From a virus: a stretch of 38,301 nucleotides of DNA. The notes under the pieces are model-generated. The model was not told the origin of the DNA, ran no database searches, and saw nothing but the letters and a program-made list of their open reading frames with translations. The position numbers and the translations under genes were made by a program. Below, one piece after another: positions 4,182 to 37,142 of the stretch (positions are counted from its first letter, which is position 1; each line of letters begins with the position of its first letter). The stretch lies in IMG/VR virus record IMGVR_UViG_3300017991_000220, positions 1-38,301 of that record; one strand, written 5' to 3'.

Positions 4182-6544
4182 TATTCACCCCAAATGTCCG
4201 TTTTTCTAACAACGGGTTCATATTCGTTGTCGTCCTCGGCCCTATCCTTATTGTAATTCTCGGTATCAATACCGTCGGGCTTATAGGCGTCCAGCTTTTT
4301 CTTTTTTATCTTTTCTACTGGTGGGGCTTCCTCTCCGTCTGGGGTAGAAACACCAACAGGCCAATCACCAGTTGATGAACCAGCCTGGACATGAGCAAGA
4401 CCCGGGTTATCTGCGTTGATAGTCGGGGCGTTGATCTTGACATTAGAACCATGGCGACCTTCTCCAGATACCCACTGAGAACCACCACCATCTATAATGT
4501 GTTTAGCTCCGGCCTTGTTGGTAATCTCATTGGCAGCCTGTAATCTAATACTCTGTCCGGCCTTTATAGTAATATCCTTTGTTGCCTCCATATTAATATT
4601 ATTACCGGCTATAACCTGTACATCCTTTTTGCAATAAATCTGAACAAGTTTGCCCTTGTTAACGACGATTACTTGCTCTTCTTCCTCATCAAACGTCAAC
4701 CACATCTCTGGTTCAGAACTTGGATCTTTACCAAGTGTCTGGGAACGTAGAACGGTTCTCTTCTTTTCGTTTGTCATCCAGAGGCCACGGTCTTGGTGGT
4801 CTACAAGCTCAGTCCAGTTCTTGCCGGTGCCGCCGCCATCACTACCACACCTTGATTCAAGACCAGCTGGGATTCCTGGTTTATAATAAGTCTTCAAACG
4901 GACATATGCATTTTTCTGGTCAAGCTTTAGGTGGTGCGTTTGAACTTCTGGGTCCCACGGTAAGAAACCGCCACCGCTGCCGTTCTCAAGATCTATCTCA
5001 CCCTTGCCATCCAAGTTGCCCATAGCAATCTTGGTTGAGAACTCATTCTCTGCACGTTTTGTCATGTTCTCCGACATGTGATAAGTCGCACCAGTCTTTT
5101 CGTCGGCATGGCCAGTGTCGGTGCAAGCCATAATATAATCATACTTGTCGTTGATCTCAAATATCTTGGACTTGGGTGAGTACATGGAAGCATGCTGGAG
5201 CTTAGCTTTTTCATTGAATTCCATGCCAAACCCGCGCTCTTCGTCATCCCTGCCCTTGCGTCGTCCCTTTAATAGGAACCCGTTGCCGTGTGGGTCTTCT
5301 TTGTCGTGAGCTTCTTTGTTGTCGGTACCACGATCATCCAGGACAAACTTATAACCATATCTAGTTACGAGTCTGGTAAAGCGGCCGTCATCCCTCTCAT
5401 GCCAGAACCCCTCACCAAAGAAGGTCTCATCATCTTTCTTTCCTTCTTGGTCCATGAACTCGCCAAACTGACGCTTATTGCCCTCTTCCTCCAGGTGTGT
5501 CTTAATGAAAAGGTCTTCTTTCTGGTCGAAGCCCTTGTCATACATCTGAAATAAATGGCCGCCCTTAGTGCGCAGCTTGATCCATCTGTGATCAACTTCC
5601 TCGTCGTTTGCCTTGTTTTTCGCGATGTCTTTAGAATCGTCGTATTCTTTCTCTCGCTGACCAGCTGGTTTATTCCAACCAACGTCACGCATCTCTATGA
5701 GATGGCCATAGCGAGTGCGCAGCTCTATGCGCCTCTGGTCACGATCCTTGTATTCCTGTTCTGTGAATGCCTTGGTGAAGTATTTGGCACGCTTGCGCTC
5801 GAATTCTTTATCCTCGTCCCAGTCACCCTTGAATTCGCCAGTACCACCATCTTTCTTCCAGTCGAAACCAACATCGTTTAGAATGATGAAGTTACCGTAT
5901 TTACTGTACATCGCCATATACTTGGCATCTGGCTCATTCTTCTTAGGCTTCTCACCGTCCGCCTCAAATTCTGACTTTGCGACAGCATCAAAGCCAACTG
6001 GGGTCGGCTCGATGTCGTGCTCTTTCGGGAAGTAACCATAGGCCTTCATAATAAAGCAGTTGCCATACCGGTCTCTCATGCCGGTTGACATTGGCCTAAA
6101 GTCCTTGGGAAGCCAGTCCTCTTCATAATCATCTGGAGTCTCATCTGCATCGGCGTCTTCAGTGAGACTTGGTGGTGATTCGATATAAACTGAATCGAGG
6201 ACGTACCTGGCTCTTCTGCTAGCATCACCACCAGCAATGTAGTATGGGCCGTACGGATGTCCCTTTTCCAGGATTATAAAGATTCTGTCATCGCGCATGA
6301 AGCTTGTCCAACTACCACACGCATTACCACCCATCCAGGGTGCCGGCATGGCCCACGGGCAATCTTCATCTTTTACGTCGAAGTCATGCCACTCTGGGCA
6401 TTTATAGCGTATTCGGTGCATCTGCAGTGGATCATTGGTATCTACAACCACGGCCCTATAGATACCAGGAAACCGCGTAAACAGTTGATCAGTACGCTTG
6501 TGTGTAAATAAGTCAAAAAGATCGTCTAAGTTGTCATCAATCAT
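4181..6544 (-). CDS. Baseplate central spike, gp5/VgrG-like, with repeated modules
   Basis: 787 residues. Residues about 22-105 resemble the gp5/VgrG OB domain (FPGIYRAVVVDTNDPLQMHR, then RIRYKCPEW, and CPWAMPAPW). A series of units follows at about residues 158, 214, 276, 325, 394 and 455. Each is built on RxRYGxxxxxxDxG (for example RTRYGHLIEMRDVG and RTKGGHLFQMYDKG), which resembles the GHxIxxxDxxG motif of spike beta-structures. The C-terminus has a beta-helix-like run (VQVIAGNNINMEATKDITIK, then AGQSIRLQAANEI). No lysozyme domain is visible, unlike T4 gp5. It should form the membrane-piercing tip below the hub. It overlaps the gp53-like gene by four bases (ATGA). Confidence 0.82.
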   Translation of the reverse strand: MIDDNLDDLFDLFTHKRTDQLFTRFPGIYRAVVVDTNDPLQMHRIRYKCPEWHDFDVKDEDCPWAMPAPWMGGNACGSWTSFMRDDRIFIILEKGHPYGPYYIAGGDASRRARYVLDSVYIESPPSLTEDADADETPDDYEEDWLPKDFRPMSTGMRDRYGNCFIMKAYGYFPKEHDIEPTPVGFDAVAKSEFEADGEKPKKNEPDAKYMAMYSKYGNFIILNDVGFDWKKDGGTGEFKGDWDEDKEFERKRAKYFTKAFTEQEYKDRDQRRIELRTRYGHLIEMRDVGWNKPAGQREKEYDDSKDIAKNKANDEEVDHRWIKLRTKGGHLFQMYDKGFDQKEDLFIKTHLEEEGNKRQFGEFMDQEGKKDDETFFGEGFWHERDDGRFTRLVTRYGYKFVLDDRGTDNKEAHDKEDPHGNGFLLKGRRKGRDDEERGFGMEFNEKAKLQHASMYSPKSKIFEINDKYDYIMACTDTGHADEKTGATYHMSENMTKRAENEFSTKIAMGNLDGKGEIDLENGSGGGFLPWDPEVQTHHLKLDQKNAYVRLKTYYKPGIPAGLESRCGSDGGGTGKNWTELVDHQDRGLWMTNEKKRTVLRSQTLGKDPSSEPEMWLTFDEEEEQVIVVNKGKLVQIYCKKDVQVIAGNNINMEATKDITIKAGQSIRLQAANEITNKAGAKHIIDGGGSQWVSGEGRHGSNVKINAPTINADNPGLAHVQAGSSTGDWPVGVSTPDGEEAPPVEKIKKKKLDAYKPDGIDTENYNKDRAEDDNEYEPVVRKTDIWGE

Positions 6545-15669: not shown

Positions 15670-16896
15670 CTACAGCAGAGGAATCATATCATCAGTCAGA
15701 GCGCCAGTACCCAAACACAGAATTGTGGTGTCTGTTGCTTCACATACGTCCCACAAATTGTTGTTCATCCACTCTTTTACTTTGGTGGTTGCATCAGCTT
15801 CTGTTCTCTTGCCTGTTACTTCGTAATCAACGTAGTTCATGAAATTGACGCACAGGTACGTGCCATAACCAGTATCATTGTGCCTAATCGCCTGCCACAA
15901 ATTTTTCTTACTAAACGTAAATACCCGACGCGGAAGTTTGGTCACTGATGTCATCTCTATGATTGGGTCTGGAGATCCGCTTACCTTAGTCAACTCATCC
16001 CAACTAATCTCCACCTGATCATCATATCCTGGGCCAGAATTGAATTCCTTGATCTCGTATGACTTGCCTTCGGCCTCGTACTCCTGAACTTCATCCCACA
16101 CCATGTGGTGACCATCTGGTGCAATAAACTTCTTGTTATTGATACGAATAGGATAAGTGCGCAAATTGAGTACAACTTTACCGGCATACTTGGGAGGTAG
16201 CATCATATCATCAAGACCAGCAGCAACAGTGCAGTTGCGAGACGTGCAAAATGGGTACATCGAATCCAAACCATAACTTAATTGGAATCCCTGAGCTACC
16301 TCCAACAAACCGGCCTGACCAGAATTAAGCCTTTTCATTACCTCGTTTGGCACATCGCATAAAAATTCTTGTAATTCTGGAACATCACGGGCAAGAAGAA
16401 CATTTGGTCGCCTTAGAATCTTCCTGGCTTTGCAGGCACCTACGCCGTGACATGTAGACCCACTCTTCATGGTACCAAGACCAAGCTCTTGTAACGGATT
16501 ACCATCAAGATCGACCTCGCCGCGCTCAAATGATGCATCAATGTCTTGAAGGATTGGTACTGTTGGGCTAATACCAAGCTTGTGCGATGGTATATTGTTC
16601 TCTTCAATTTCCCTAAACAGGGCTGGCAATTCAATCATTGCGCCATGACCAAGATACATCTTCTCATATCTGTCTGACATATAAGCACAGCTATTAAGTG
16701 TCTGATAGAAAAATGTGCGACCATCATCCAACTTAATCCAATGACCAGCCTGTGGTCCGAATGTATTGCAACAGAACTGGAAATTGTCGGCGTGCTCGGC
16801 AATATAAGAACCAAGTTTGCCCTTGCCGGATGATCCCGCTGATGCGTCGAGGACTGTTGTTAATCTTCCTGGTGTGAATACCGCGTTTGTTCTCAT
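15670..16896 (-). CDS. Adenylosuccinate synthetase homologue, PurZ-like candidate
   Basis: 408 residues from ATG 16896; an upstream in-frame ATG at 16905 has its AAGG too close. Similarity to PurA runs the full length: GSSGKGK (residues 21-27) at the GTP-binding GDEGKGK loop, QAGH with His52 at PurA NAGH, GSTCHGVGACKARK at GTTGRGIGP, LEVAQGFQL and MYPFCTSRNCT at the substrate-binding centre, TKLPRR at the aspartate loop, ILCLGTGALTDDMI at the C-terminus. PurA joins aspartate to IMP using GTP. The catalytic Asp is Ser22 and the next Glu is Ser23. As I recall, PurZ enzymes, which use dGMP to start 2-aminoadenine synthesis, also carry Ser or Gly there. Either PurZ-like or a third substrate is possible. 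Confidence 0.8.
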   Translation of the reverse strand: MRTNAVFTPGRLTTVLDASAGSSGKGKLGSYIAEHADNFQFCCNTFGPQAGHWIKLDDGRTFFYQTLNSCAYMSDRYEKMYLGHGAMIELPALFREIEENNIPSHKLGISPTVPILQDIDASFERGEVDLDGNPLQELGLGTMKSGSTCHGVGACKARKILRRPNVLLARDVPELQEFLCDVPNEVMKRLNSGQAGLLEVAQGFQLSYGLDSMYPFCTSRNCTVAAGLDDMMLPPKYAGKVVLNLRTYPIRINNKKFIAPDGHHMVWDEVQEYEAEGKSYEIKEFNSGPGYDDQVEISWDELTKVSGSPDPIIEMTSVTKLPRRVFTFSKKNLWQAIRHNDTGYGTYLCVNFMNYVDYEVTGKRTEADATTKVKEWMNNNLWDVCEATDTTILCLGTGALTDDMIPLL

Positions 16897-16897
16897 A

Positions 16898-17266
16898 TCA
16901 TCCATCCTTTTTGTCTTTATACTTTGGGATAAGTCTTACCCAATGGTGTGGGACCCACAATTTAAGGCCATCTTTGAACTCAAGCCTATAGTTGCAATGA
17001 TCCTTTGCGACAATCTTACCTTTCTTTAGGTGCAATTTGTGGTCTTTGTTACACAAAAAGACTGTGGTTCCTGTGTCTATAGTTGTCTCTGTAGGTGGTT
17101 GAAATACAACACCAGACGACTCTGTCTCAACCCACAACTTCTCACTATAAACCGAACCGCATTTTTTACAGCAGATTGGTACTGAACCAACACTCGCCCA
17201 GTCTACATTAACAGGATTCCGGCTTTTACAGCCAGGACATATCGAATACATTACTTCATCAGGCAT
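16898..17266 (-). CDS. Hypothetical zinc-ribbon protein
   Basis: 122 residues. The N-terminus carries CPGCKSRNP and, 25 residues on, CCKKCGSVY, a zinc-ribbon arrangement. The remaining part is beta-rich and ends with LKLWVPHHWVRLIPKYKDK. Family unknown. Its stop overlaps the PurA homologue's upstream ATG, so the two are closely coupled. It starts right after the DeoC-like gene. Confidence 0.6.
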   Translation of the reverse strand: MPDEVMYSICPGCKSRNPVNVDWASVGSVPICCKKCGSVYSEKLWVETESSGVVFQPPTETTIDTGTTVFLCNKDHKLHLKKGKIVAKDHCNYRLEFKDGLKLWVPHHWVRLIPKYKDKKDG

Positions 17267-24859: not shown

Positions 24860-25054
24860 CTAGGATCTGCGTTTAGTCTGCTCACGCTCAGATCGAGCTA
24901 AACTCTCCATCGCCTCAACCATACGCCCAATTAGACTTGGTTCTTTGGGGCTTTTATTTATATTATTTAATATTGTGCTCATTGTTACCGTGAGTAAAGT
25001 CCCAATTATAATCGCTGCCCCTGTTGTAATTATCTTGTATTTTATGTTACTCAC
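24860..25054 (-). CDS. Single-pass membrane protein
   Basis: 64 residues from GTG 25054 with GGAGG seven bases upstream (a TTG at 25060 is too close to it). The helix TTGAAIIIGTLLTVTMSTIL is a likely transmembrane segment. The C-terminus is charged (MESLARSEREQTKRRS) and faces the cytoplasm by the positive-inside rule. No family recognised. It is divergent from the RNA ligase gene, and 25055-25103 should contain both promoters. Confidence 0.55.
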   Translation of the reverse strand: MSNIKYKIITTGAAIIIGTLLTVTMSTILNNINKSPKEPSLIGRMVEAMESLARSEREQTKRRS

Positions 25055-25103
25055 GGTCAATCCTCCAATGAGGAATATCCCACATTATTTTTGGAGAAAC
25101 AAT

Positions 25104-26189
25104 ATGGCAAGTTCGCTCGTAGTACCAATCGTTAAAATTGAAAACGTTCGGCCGCATCCAAATGCTGATAAACTTGATCTAGCCAGTGTTCTTGGTTATC
25201 AAATGGCAATTCCAAAAGGTAAGTACTCCAATGACGATGTGGTTGTCTACTTTCCAGCAGACACCATTCTTACTCCTGAATGGATTGATAAGCTCGGTGT
25301 GGTTAATTTTTTGAAGGGGAAGGATAAGAATAGGGTTGGCAAGATCCGTCTGAGAGGTGAAGCCTCGTTCGGTCTTATCATTGCGGTGCCTGATGGCCTG
25401 CAGGGTGAGGTTGGTGATAACGTGGCTGAGTTCTTCGGAGCCACCAAATACGAGCCACCAATAAAAGCCCAAACTGGTGATGCCGCACCGCGTGATGAAA
25501 ATATAGACCCATTCTTCAATAAATACACCGACATCGAGAACGGCCGTATCTTCGTCGATGTGTTCCAGCCCGGTGAAGAAGTAATTGCCACAGAAAAAAT
25601 TCACGGCACCAATTGTAGGTTGGGTTACGTGAATGGTAACAAGGTTGCTGGTTCTATGGGTCTGCGACGTCTACCACCAATCAGAAAATTAGACATGACG
25701 GACGAAGAGTATGATGCAGAAATGAAACGTAATACCTACTGGTTCCCATGGACCATTCCTAGCGTAGACATGCTCCTGACGTCTCTGTCTGAGCAATGCA
25801 GAACTGTTGTGCTGTACGGTGAAGTGTTTGGGGGAAACGTTCAGAATCTGAACTATGGAATTGAGAAGGGGAGGGGATTTGGTTTCCGGGCATTCGATCT
25901 ATACGTCGACTACGGAAATGGTGGTCATTTTGTCGATTGGGATGTTCTGGTCAAGTACTGTAGTGGTGATATAGACACAGCGCCTGTTTTATACCGTGGC
26001 CCATTCGACTTTGATAAGATTAAAGAAGTTGCTGATGGAAAGACTACAATCGGTGGTGATCATATAAGGGAGGGAGTGGTTATAAAACCAGTTAAGGAAA
26101 GAGTCGATCCAAAGATCGGGCGTGCTGTTCTCAAGTATATCGGAACAGAATATGAGTTATCCAAGAAATCTGATTCTAAAGACGTCTAG
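25104..26189 (+). CDS. RNA ligase, Rnl5/DRB0094-like
   Basis: 361 residues from ATG 25104, which has GGAG upstream; an earlier in-frame ATG would add about 53 residues overlapping the divergent gene and is unlikely. The N-terminal 150 residues are an OB-like domain (PIVKIENVRPHPNADKLDL, then LTPEWIDKLGVVNFLKGK), as in Deinococcus DraRnl. The nucleotidyl motif is TEKIHGTN with Lys165. Others are VLYGEVFGG, GFGFRAFDLYVD, EGVVIKPV and VLKYIG, the remaining ligase motifs in order. These enzymes seal RNA nicks using ATP. In a phage with many tRNAs, repair of tRNAs cut by host anticodon nucleases is an attractive role. The stop shares CTAG with the convergent gene's stop. Confidence 0.88.
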   Translation: MASSLVVPIVKIENVRPHPNADKLDLASVLGYQMAIPKGKYSNDDVVVYFPADTILTPEWIDKLGVVNFLKGKDKNRVGKIRLRGEASFGLIIAVPDGLQGEVGDNVAEFFGATKYEPPIKAQTGDAAPRDENIDPFFNKYTDIENGRIFVDVFQPGEEVIATEKIHGTNCRLGYVNGNKVAGSMGLRRLPPIRKLDMTDEEYDAEMKRNTYWFPWTIPSVDMLLTSLSEQCRTVVLYGEVFGGNVQNLNYGIEKGRGFGFRAFDLYVDYGNGGHFVDWDVLVKYCSGDIDTAPVLYRGPFDFDKIKEVADGKTTIGGDHIREGVVIKPVKERVDPKIGRAVLKYIGTEYELSKKSDSKDV

Positions 26190-30424: not shown

Positions 30425-30460
30425 TGTAGCCGACACCAAGAATCGAACTCAGATCTGATC
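30425..30460 (-). tRNA. tRNA 3' fragment (pseudo-tRNA)
   Basis: Directly after the CCA of tRNA-Thr(GGT) lies a T-arm-like CTGAG/CTTGG around TTCGATT, then a 3' acceptor-like GTCGGCT and ACA in place of CCA. No matching 5' acceptor (AGCCGAC) was found upstream. It is the remains of a second tRNA. Confidence 0.6.
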
Positions 30461-32886: not shown

Positions 32887-32974
32887 TGGCGGATAGCGGA
32901 GGTATCGATCCCCATACCCTTTCAGGTACGATCGGTTTTCAAGACCGTCCTGGACCCTGTCCAGTTCACTATCC
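32887..32974 (-). tRNA. tRNA-Ser(TGA)
   Basis: Class II. Acceptor GGATAGT pairs with GCTATCC, then G and CCA. The anticodon loop is CTTGAAA (TGA). The T-loop is ATCGATA, with A in place of the conserved T54. Three bases separate it from tRNA-Ser(GCT). Confidence 0.88.
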
Positions 32975-32977
32975 ACT

Positions 32978-33069: not shown

Positions 33070-33113
33070 AGTTTGTCATAGTCCTCTGCATTTCTCAACC
33101 GGGCTTGGAACCG

Positions 33114-33143
33114 GTTACAGCTGCATTACTATTAAATTGTCAA
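33114..33143 (-). promoter_or_regulatory. Possible promoter for the tRNA array
   Basis: On the minus strand TTGACA (33143-33138) is followed after 18 bases by TGTAAC (33119-33114), four of six matches to TATAAT. It lies just downstream of a terminator and upstream of tRNA-Ser(GCT), so it could restart transcription of the array. Confidence 0.4.
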
Positions 33144-33282: not shown

Positions 33283-33792
33283 TTACAATTCTACCCATCT
33301 CGTCCAGGTCTGATGGGTTCTTACATCCACACCCTTAACGATCAAGATGTCACGATGAGGAACAAACGGCTTAGATTTCAATTTCATCTTGGCCTCTCCC
33401 GGAGTCATGTTGTCCTTCTTATTGTTACATGGACGGCAACAAGCTACAACATTCTTCCAGGTGTGTTTACCACCACGGCTACGCGGCATTACGTGATCCA
33501 TCGTGCCGGTGGTGCTAGATAACTTATCACCACAGTACTGGCAGATGTAACCATCGCGCTTAAGCACGTTGTCCTTATTTAAAGCAGAACGCTTATACGG
33601 AATCCGTACATATTGTACCAGAACGAGGGCCGTTGGGAGCCTGAAAATGCCACTGGTTGTGGTGATCTCGTACTCTTCGTTGTGATTGTGTGGGCGCTTT
33701 GCCTTGCCCTGAAACAGCAACGTAGCAGCTCTTTGCCAGCCAATAACATCAACGATTTCCTCACTTGCATTCAACAACAACACTTTCTTCAC
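33283..33792 (-). CDS. HNH endonuclease, McrA-like
   Basis: 169 residues from GTG 33792, chosen because the family starts VKKVLLLNASEE and the upstream GTG (33801) is too close to AAGGA. WQRAATLLFQGKA near residue 20 is the family's opening. CQYCGDKLSSTTGTMDHVMP with RSRGGKHTWKNVVACCRPCN contains the HNH core (DH, N) and two CxxC zinc pairs. It cuts DNA. In phages such genes are often free-standing homing endonucleases or packaging nucleases. Transcription stops at the terminator after it, so it is set apart from the tRNA array. Confidence 0.85.
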   Translation of the reverse strand: MKKVLLLNASEEIVDVIGWQRAATLLFQGKAKRPHNHNEEYEITTTSGIFRLPTALVLVQYVRIPYKRSALNKDNVLKRDGYICQYCGDKLSSTTGTMDHVMPRSRGGKHTWKNVVACCRPCNNKKDNMTPGEAKMKLKSKPFVPHRDILIVKGVDVRTHQTWTRWVEL

Positions 33793-33860
33793 GGTCCTCA
33801 CCTTCCTTTCTATTAATGATTATCTACACCGCTCTCCACTTGGATAAAAACAACGCATAT

Positions 33861-34110: not shown

Positions 34111-34148
34111 TGGTGGCCGAGGAAGGAGTCGAACCCCCACGGGCATGT
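34111..34148 (-). tRNA. 3' half of an interrupted tRNA-Leu
   Basis: Directly after the CCA of tRNA-Leu(TAG) comes GCCCGTGGGGG, a T-loop TTCGACT, and 3' acceptor CTCGGCC with A and CCA. It is nearly identical to the 3' half of tRNA-Leu(CAA) at 34372. Its acceptor pairs perfectly with GGCCGGG (34279-34273) on the other side of tRNA-Leu(TAG). Confidence 0.75.
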
Positions 34149-34236
34149 TGGTACGGACGGTGGGATTCGAACCCACACGGGACTAAGTCCAATAGATCCT
34201 AAGTCTATCCCCTGCTGCCAATTCGGGTACGTCCGC
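34149..34236 (-). tRNA. tRNA-Leu(TAG), inserted in another tRNA
   Basis: Class II. Acceptor GCGGACG pairs with CGTCCGT, then A and CCA. The anticodon loop is CTTAGGA (TAG) on ATAGA/TCTAT. The T-arm is GTGGG/CCCAC. It lies between the two halves of a decayed tRNA-Leu. Confidence 0.95.
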
Positions 34237-34279
34237 TCATTTTGCTGAAAGTTTTATAGCACTTACCCACCACCCGGCC
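34237..34279 (-). tRNA. 5' half of an interrupted tRNA-Leu
   Basis: GGCCGGG, TG and a D-arm-like GTGGGTAAGTGC resemble the 5' end of tRNA-Leu(CAA). A CAAAA-containing stretch follows where its anticodon loop would be, and the fragment ends where tRNA-Leu(TAG) begins. Joined with 34111-34148 it would give about 81 bases, near the size of a Leu tRNA. Confidence 0.6.
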
Positions 34280-34283
34280 TTAT

Positions 34284-34368
34284 TGGTACCCTCGGTGGGA
34301 TTCGAACCCACATGGTCTATGACCACCGCGCCCTCAACGCGGCCCCTATGCCTTTCGGGTACGAGGGC
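34284..34368 (-). tRNA. tRNA-Leu(GAG)
   Basis: Class II. Acceptor GCCCTCG pairs with CGAGGGT, then A and CCA. The anticodon loop is TTGAGGG (GAG) on CCGCG/CGCGG. The variable arm is long. Confidence 0.95.
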
Positions 34369-34371
34369 ATT

Positions 34372-34457
34372 TGGTAGCCGAGGAGGGAGTCGAACCCTCA
34401 CGGGCTAATGCCCATCAGATTTTGAATCTGACATGTCTACCGTTCCATCACTCGGCC
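34372..34457 (-). tRNA. tRNA-Leu(CAA)
   Basis: Class II. Acceptor GGCCGAG pairs with CTCGGCT, then A and CCA. The anticodon loop is TTCAAAA (CAA) on TCAGA/TCTGA. The protein gene at 34405 runs 53 bases into it. Confidence 0.95.
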
Positions 34458-37091: not shown

Positions 37092-37142
37092 TGGCTGGCA
37101 CGCTGGGACTTGAACCAAAATTTATAATTAACAGTCCAGAAT
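37092..37142 (-). tRNA. tRNA 3' fragment after tRNA-Asn
   Basis: After the CCA of tRNA-Asn comes a loop-like CTGTTAA (again GTT), then T-loop TTCAAGT with weak stem, then CGTGCCA, G and CCA. The 5' acceptor and D-arm are absent. It looks like a second, decayed tRNA-Asn. Confidence 0.6.

Follow-up and report, generated by a model that had tools for sequence, protein, structure and literature searches.

Phage tRNA-cluster pseudogenes have been recorded in Aeh1 and other T4-like phages (PMC1524935), in a published table that just counts them. In Archaea and eukaryotes, intron-containing, split and permuted tRNA genes (PMC3218864, PMC3978253, PMC4033280) are encoded with their two halves apart in the DNA, and a functional tRNA is produced from them by splicing or joining. 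The homing endonuclease SegB of phage T6 makes its cuts within tRNA genes and, by way of phage recombination, causes the tRNA region to be duplicated (PMC13096335); by our own reading, the SegB motif RAWTSGAAC would be the complement of the T-arm.

The locus analysed here, from an uncultured phage, lies on a single contig, IMG/VR virus record IMGVR_UViG_3300017991_000220, and the whole 38.3-kb stretch of DNA analysed is referred to below as the window. Like the T4-like phages, the window represents a large phage of myovirus type whose dense tRNA cluster mixes broken tRNAs with complete ones, but unlike in the pseudogenes counted there, both ends of apparently one gene flank a complete tRNA. 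As in the intron-containing, split and permuted genes, two halves lie apart in the DNA, whereas here the core is missing and the separator is itself a complete tRNA. With the T6 system the window would share recombination in a phage tRNA array beside an endonuclease gene; SegB is, however, a GIY-YIG enzyme, while the window encodes an HNH enzyme for which a link to tRNA cleavage is hypothetical, and repeat amplification is not seen in the window. The arrangement of an intact tRNA-Leu(TAG) between two broken tRNA-Leu ends is real, and we conclude that the locus is a scar of gene shuffling in the tRNA cluster and not a working gene within a gene.

The window carries T4-type genes, namely a baseplate wedge protein and an SbcC/SbcD-like recombination pair. 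ARAGORN identified 21 tRNA genes, every one on the minus strand, spanning ~11 kb (26.4-37.2 kb). Leucine has five anticodon classes, and the tRNA-Leu genes of the window cover four of them (TAA, TAG, GAG and CAA). Read 5' to 3' on the minus strand, the locus consists of tRNA-Leu(CAA), tRNA-Leu(GAG), the four bases ATAA, a stretch of 43 bases (34279-34237), tRNA-Leu(TAG) and a further 38 bases (Table 1). The HNH endonuclease gene lies 0.3 kb downstream of the last of these. Directly beside the cluster is an RNA ligase gene, the product of which may possibly serve in tRNA repair; a search for the T4 RNA ligase 1 family (PF09511) gave no match, and nor did the controls for that family.

Table 1 Features of the tRNA-Leu locus and related elements in the window (Leu, leucine; coordinates are those of the window).
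Feature	Position	Strand	Basis
RNA ligase adjoining the tRNA cluster	24945..26189	+	PF09414 and PHA02142 OB-fold, 86.4 bits
Second orphan 3' end, Thr-like, directly after tRNA-Thr(GGT)	30425..30460	-	
HNH endonuclease adjoining the Leu array	33283..33801	-	phrog_16726, 1.7e-31; PF14279 HNH_5
Orphan 3' tRNA end: part of variable arm, T-arm, acceptor CTCGGCC, ACCA	34111..34148	-	Copy of Leu(CAA) 3' end; T-arm motif outside called tRNAs
Complete tRNA-Leu(TAG), the inner tRNA, CCA encoded	34149..34236	-	ARAGORN; Rfam tRNA, 54 bits
Spacer with no detectable tRNA similarity, taken earlier as the rest of the 5' half	34237..34266	-	Shuffle tests; no cmscan match
Orphan 5' tRNA-Leu end GGCCGGGTGGTGG: acceptor strand and start of D-arm	34267..34279	-	Leu similarity; 7/7 pairing with the 3' end
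Complete tRNA-Leu(GAG), closest paralog of Leu(TAG) (70% identity, T-arm in common)	34284..34368	-	
Complete tRNA-Leu(CAA), closest paralog of both orphan ends	34372..34457	-	ARAGORN and sequence comparison
Third orphan 3' piece, Asn-like (CTGTTAA anticodon loop, T-arm, CCA), directly after tRNA-Asn(GTT)	37092..37142	-	

Three further elements were noted in the window. A match resembling the type-P1 twister ribozyme lies directly 5' of tRNA-Ser(GCT) (33078-33132, minus strand; 46.6 bits, E 6.6e-8, which falls under the Rfam gathering score of 67.2), and it may possibly free the 5' leader of this tRNA; theta ribozymes linked to phage tRNAs offer a comparison (PMC10879173). A long-arm tRNA missed by ARAGORN is found at 32890-32975 (minus strand), with a tRNA-Sec-like score of 44.1 bits against a cut-off of 47, an anticodon read by eye as TGA (Ser) and an odd T-loop, ATCGATA. 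An adenylosuccinate synthetase-like protein (15670-16905, minus strand) matches the PHROG of PurZ-type enzymes, a hint that the DNA may contain 2-aminoadenine.

The first-pass annotation of this DNA had placed a complete tRNA-Leu(TAG) inside another tRNA-Leu, and the inner gene is borne out by both ARAGORN and the Rfam tRNA model. This tRNA would presumably be made in the ordinary way, transcription being followed by RNase P and 3' nuclease processing, with the flanking ends discarded as leader and trailer. The 38-base 3' tRNA end, said to follow directly on the CCA of tRNA-Leu(TAG), is likewise present, as is its near identity to tRNA-Leu(CAA): 34 of 37 aligned bases are identical, with a 2-nt gap. 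It retains a full T-arm and the acceptor strand, and nothing of the gene 5' of the last part of the variable arm.

The tRNA-derived 5' piece proved shorter than had been claimed. From the proposed 43-base 5' half, the first 13 nt (GGCCGGGTGGTGG) are indeed a tRNA-Leu 5' end, but nucleotides 14-43 are without similarity to tRNA-Leu. The 13 nt match the 5' end of tRNA-Leu(CAA) at 11 of 13 positions and that of a viral tRNA-Leu(taa) on another contig (L129) at all 13, and they begin 4 nt past the CCA of the preceding tRNA. The motif TGGTGG at tRNA positions 8-13 occurs in 15/140 viral Leu tRNAs and in 1/~1,090 other tRNAs. The acceptor strand GGCCGGG, read from 34279, pairs with CTCGGCC of the 3' end over all seven positions; the match had been called perfect, but one of the pairs is G.T and the other six are Watson-Crick. 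For pairing of such quality, the expectation in the 47-nt gap is 0.018 occurrences. The matches to Leu(CAA) and Leu(taa), the nearly Leu-specific TGGTGG and the low expectation for the pairing together argue that the 5' piece is not a product of chance. We therefore regard it as improbable that the 3' end is the sole tRNA remnant and the 5' piece a chance match. The similarity does span just 13 nt, and seven-pair matches with at most one G.T number 17 on the minus strand of the window; against this, the Leu(CAA) 5' end recurs with two or fewer mismatches at only three places in 76,578 positions (the window, both strands), including the gene itself and the 5' piece, and a chance match would also have to account for its start just behind the preceding CCA and for the TGGTGG motif.

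The remaining 30 nt of the 5' piece and the joined outer halves were examined by several routes. Against Leu tRNAs, nucleotides 14-43 scored no better than shuffled sequences under three scoring schemes (p 0.19-0.77), and the same was true against 1,231 viral tRNAs. A cmscan search with the 43-nt piece gave no match at E <= 10, where a piece of Leu(CAA) of the same length gave 22.8 bits and the 5' half of an intact nested tRNA in another virus (L025, described below) gave 16.4 bits. The two halves had been said to add up to about one tRNA-Leu; as nucleotides 14-43 are not tRNA-like, this sum is probably a coincidence of spacer length. Three candidate origins of the spacer were rejected: as a decayed Leu(CAA), Leu(TAA) or Leu(CAG), for which TTCAG and CAAAAT are tempting by eye, shuffles scored equally well; as a copy from elsewhere in the window, the best candidate had at least 8/27 mismatches; and as a sigma-70 promoter, a consensus site was not found.

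When the inner tRNA was taken out and the halves joined, ARAGORN did not call a tRNA at its default threshold or at 95% of it, whereas dinucleotide shuffles of bases 10-43 were called in 9% and 34% of cases, respectively; in the positive control, L025, 30 of 36 joins were called. The tRNA-like score that an interrupted gene should give on removal of the insert is thus absent. A relaxed call of the joined gene, at 90% of the threshold or below, was discarded, as 70-100% of the dinucleotide shuffles were called too. No anticodon stem can form from the two outer pieces, and the arrangement is not that of an anticodon-loop intron. Of the core (D-arm, anticodon arm and the variable arm on its 5' side), approximately 30-35 nt are gone or have been swapped for unrelated sequence. 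What is found is partial tRNA-derived sequence within a tRNA cluster, with the functional core lost, as in a tRNA remnant. The joined halves being uncalled where 9% of shuffles are called, the outer gene is not a working tRNA; judged from its sequence, it is dead. RNase P products carry ligatable ends. A nested gene that still works would release its inner tRNA through RNase P and 3' processing and have its outer halves joined by the phage RNA ligase; it would draw on the ligase encoded beside the cluster, on the intact acceptor pairing and on the ligatable ends that these cuts would leave. We hold it to be extremely improbable: the joined product would have no D-arm or anticodon arm, no credible anticodon stem and less likeness to a tRNA than shuffled sequence, and such a working gene in the window was rejected on the joined-sequence tests.

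Two other orphan 3' ends, one Thr-like and one Asn-like, were found in the window (Table 1), with no evident 5' partner there for either; a 3' end by itself therefore needs no insertion. Viral contigs were searched for a T-arm at a distance of 4-30 nt downstream from the CCA of a complete tRNA, and at least 120 matched. Given this recurrence in the window and in viral contigs, array breakage appears to be routine. Among the matches listed, 99 had a recognisable inner tRNA, or 97 besides the window and its own copy, and one of these 97 listed matches (L025) had a full 5' partner, defined as fully Watson-Crick, at a fitting distance and with TA at positions 8-9. Turnover of tRNA arrays thus routinely leaves orphan 3' ends behind, and it is the matching 5' end that is unusual in the window. 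The notion that orphan 3' ends are in general copies of the adjacent upstream tRNA was not retained, the excess being weak (10/63 against 5.9 expected). On one contig (L084), a short tRNA-like piece follows tRNA-Met(cat), with matching acceptor ends and seemingly without an anticodon arm (AGTCCTG...CAGGACTACCA).

How the arrangement came about had been left between one tRNA gene inserted into another and recombination between neighbours. Part of this stands, in that both ends are Leu(CAA)-like and flank tRNA-Leu(TAG), but the outer gene has lost its core and is not merely interrupted. That both end pieces resemble Leu(CAA) and flank Leu(TAG) makes it plausible that Leu(TAG) now sits inside the remains of one Leu gene. 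Our main reading, to which we give a probability of roughly 0.55, is that the two pieces are the dead ends of one former sister gene of tRNA-Leu(CAA), the middle of which was replaced with Leu(TAG) by recombination in the array. Under this reading, the former gene would have supplied both flanking pieces, and Leu(TAG) together with ~30 nt of its own leader would have taken the place of roughly nucleotides 14-47. The process could have started from breaks made by a tRNA-associated endonuclease, for which the HNH enzyme 0.3 kb downstream is a candidate, a possible trigger of breaks in the cluster. We infer the one-gene origin of both ends, the single event and the endonuclease-started breaks. 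A single event behind the structure is the parsimonious choice, and an unbroken outer gene or an intermediate was seen in no relative. Relative to Leu(CAA), the outer ends differ by four stem changes read from the sequences (A6G, T72C, A50G and C63T), all of which keep a pair; this mildly favours divergence while the gene was still working, with breakage later.

The ends could also be two separate remnants. A unit of a Leu(CAA)-like and a Leu(GAG/TAG)-like gene would have been duplicated in tandem into an alternating array, so that Leu(TAG) was never inserted into anything; the CAA-like copy ahead of Leu(TAG) would then have been deprived of its 3' part and the copy behind it of its 5' part. 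A repeated two-gene unit fits the observed order (CAA, GAG, CAA-like 5' end, TAG, CAA-like 3' end), the GAG and TAG genes being sisters (70% identity, common T-arm) and the orphan ends sisters of CAA. Partnerless orphan 3' ends are also common, with two more in the window, and in T6, SegB is known to drive tandem duplication of tRNA regions. This history would, however, take a minimum of one duplication plus two deletions, and it would be partly luck that the ends of two different copies still pair. We judge it to be a serious contender, yet one that falls well short of even odds.

Relatives of the locus were sought in phages and viral contigs. BLAST gave no near match in phages, and no homologous locus was found in viral contigs by tRNA patterns, gene patterns, protein or DNA routes; the closest viral contig found had only a 55%-identical baseplate protein in common with the window. 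As no close relative of the locus was found among the phages and viral contigs searched, there was none in which an uninterrupted outer gene could be read. The layout is known from this contig, and an assembly error is a formal possibility.

Intact loci of the nested type were found in other genomes. The flanks of every complete tRNA in the retrieved loci were joined and tested as a tRNA, and a genome scan returned 106 places among 84,980 species, in which Patescibacteria stand out. Intact nesting was seen in the virus L025, in the Patescibacteria loci L247, L272, L273, L285 and L198, and in an unclassified bacterium (L244). In L025 (IMGVR_UViG_3300007177_000055, 4995-5145), tRNA-Ile(gat) lies inside the anticodon loop of another tRNA with acceptor, D-arm, anticodon stem and T-arm all intact; a relative of this nested locus was not found. 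In Ca. Curtissbacteria (L247:5366-5540), a complete tRNA-Val(CAC) sits within the anticodon region of another tRNA gene. Two loci from the Ca. Curtissbacteria order, L272 (81% across the nested locus as a whole) and L273, are related to it, and the locus in L244 is similar; in a further locus, L274, the outer gene looks decayed. The outer gene of L272 was considered as a possible filler of a gap in the tRNA set of its genome: 45 tRNAs were read there, Asp being absent among them, but the outer gene is without a GTC anticodon. In another Patescibacteria genome (L285:1412-1600; G014:C64), a 121-nt insert that carries tRNA-Ile(TAT) and near-terminal inverted repeats splits the anticodon loop of another tRNA-Ile(TAT) at CTTA|TAA, and a related Patescibacteria genome (L296:1501-1573; G006:C7) has the same tRNA-Ile(TAT) uninterrupted, as an empty site. 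In the open-access literature, we found no phrase for a tRNA inside a tRNA, and searches for tRNA introns in these bacteria gave nothing on such nesting. During this survey, one tRNA slot in Tateyamaria was seen to hold Gln(TTG) in one species and a near-identical Arg(GCG) in another (L204:6854-6929 and L226:5041-5116), which suggests an anticodon switch.

Like the window, the nested loci of L025, the Patescibacteria and L244 have a complete tRNA between the 5' and 3' parts of another, but leaving out the insert restores a whole outer tRNA in L025 and L285, and not in the window. These clean insertions make an insertion origin plausible for the window and do not demonstrate it there; that the window is a decayed case of a whole tRNA gene inserted into another tRNA gene is a tentative reading, to which we give slightly less than even odds.

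For the phage, the meaning of the locus is modest: it is a readable scar of the rebuilding of phage tRNA arrays, and such rebuilding has lately been linked to the evasion of tRNA-cleaving defences. The weightier lead is the wider one: in a virus and in Patescibacteria, some tRNA genes harbour another whole tRNA gene in their anticodon loop. Should these outer genes still yield tRNAs, bacteria would need a splicing or ligation route; if they yield none, the loci would represent the in-place replacement of one tRNA gene by another.
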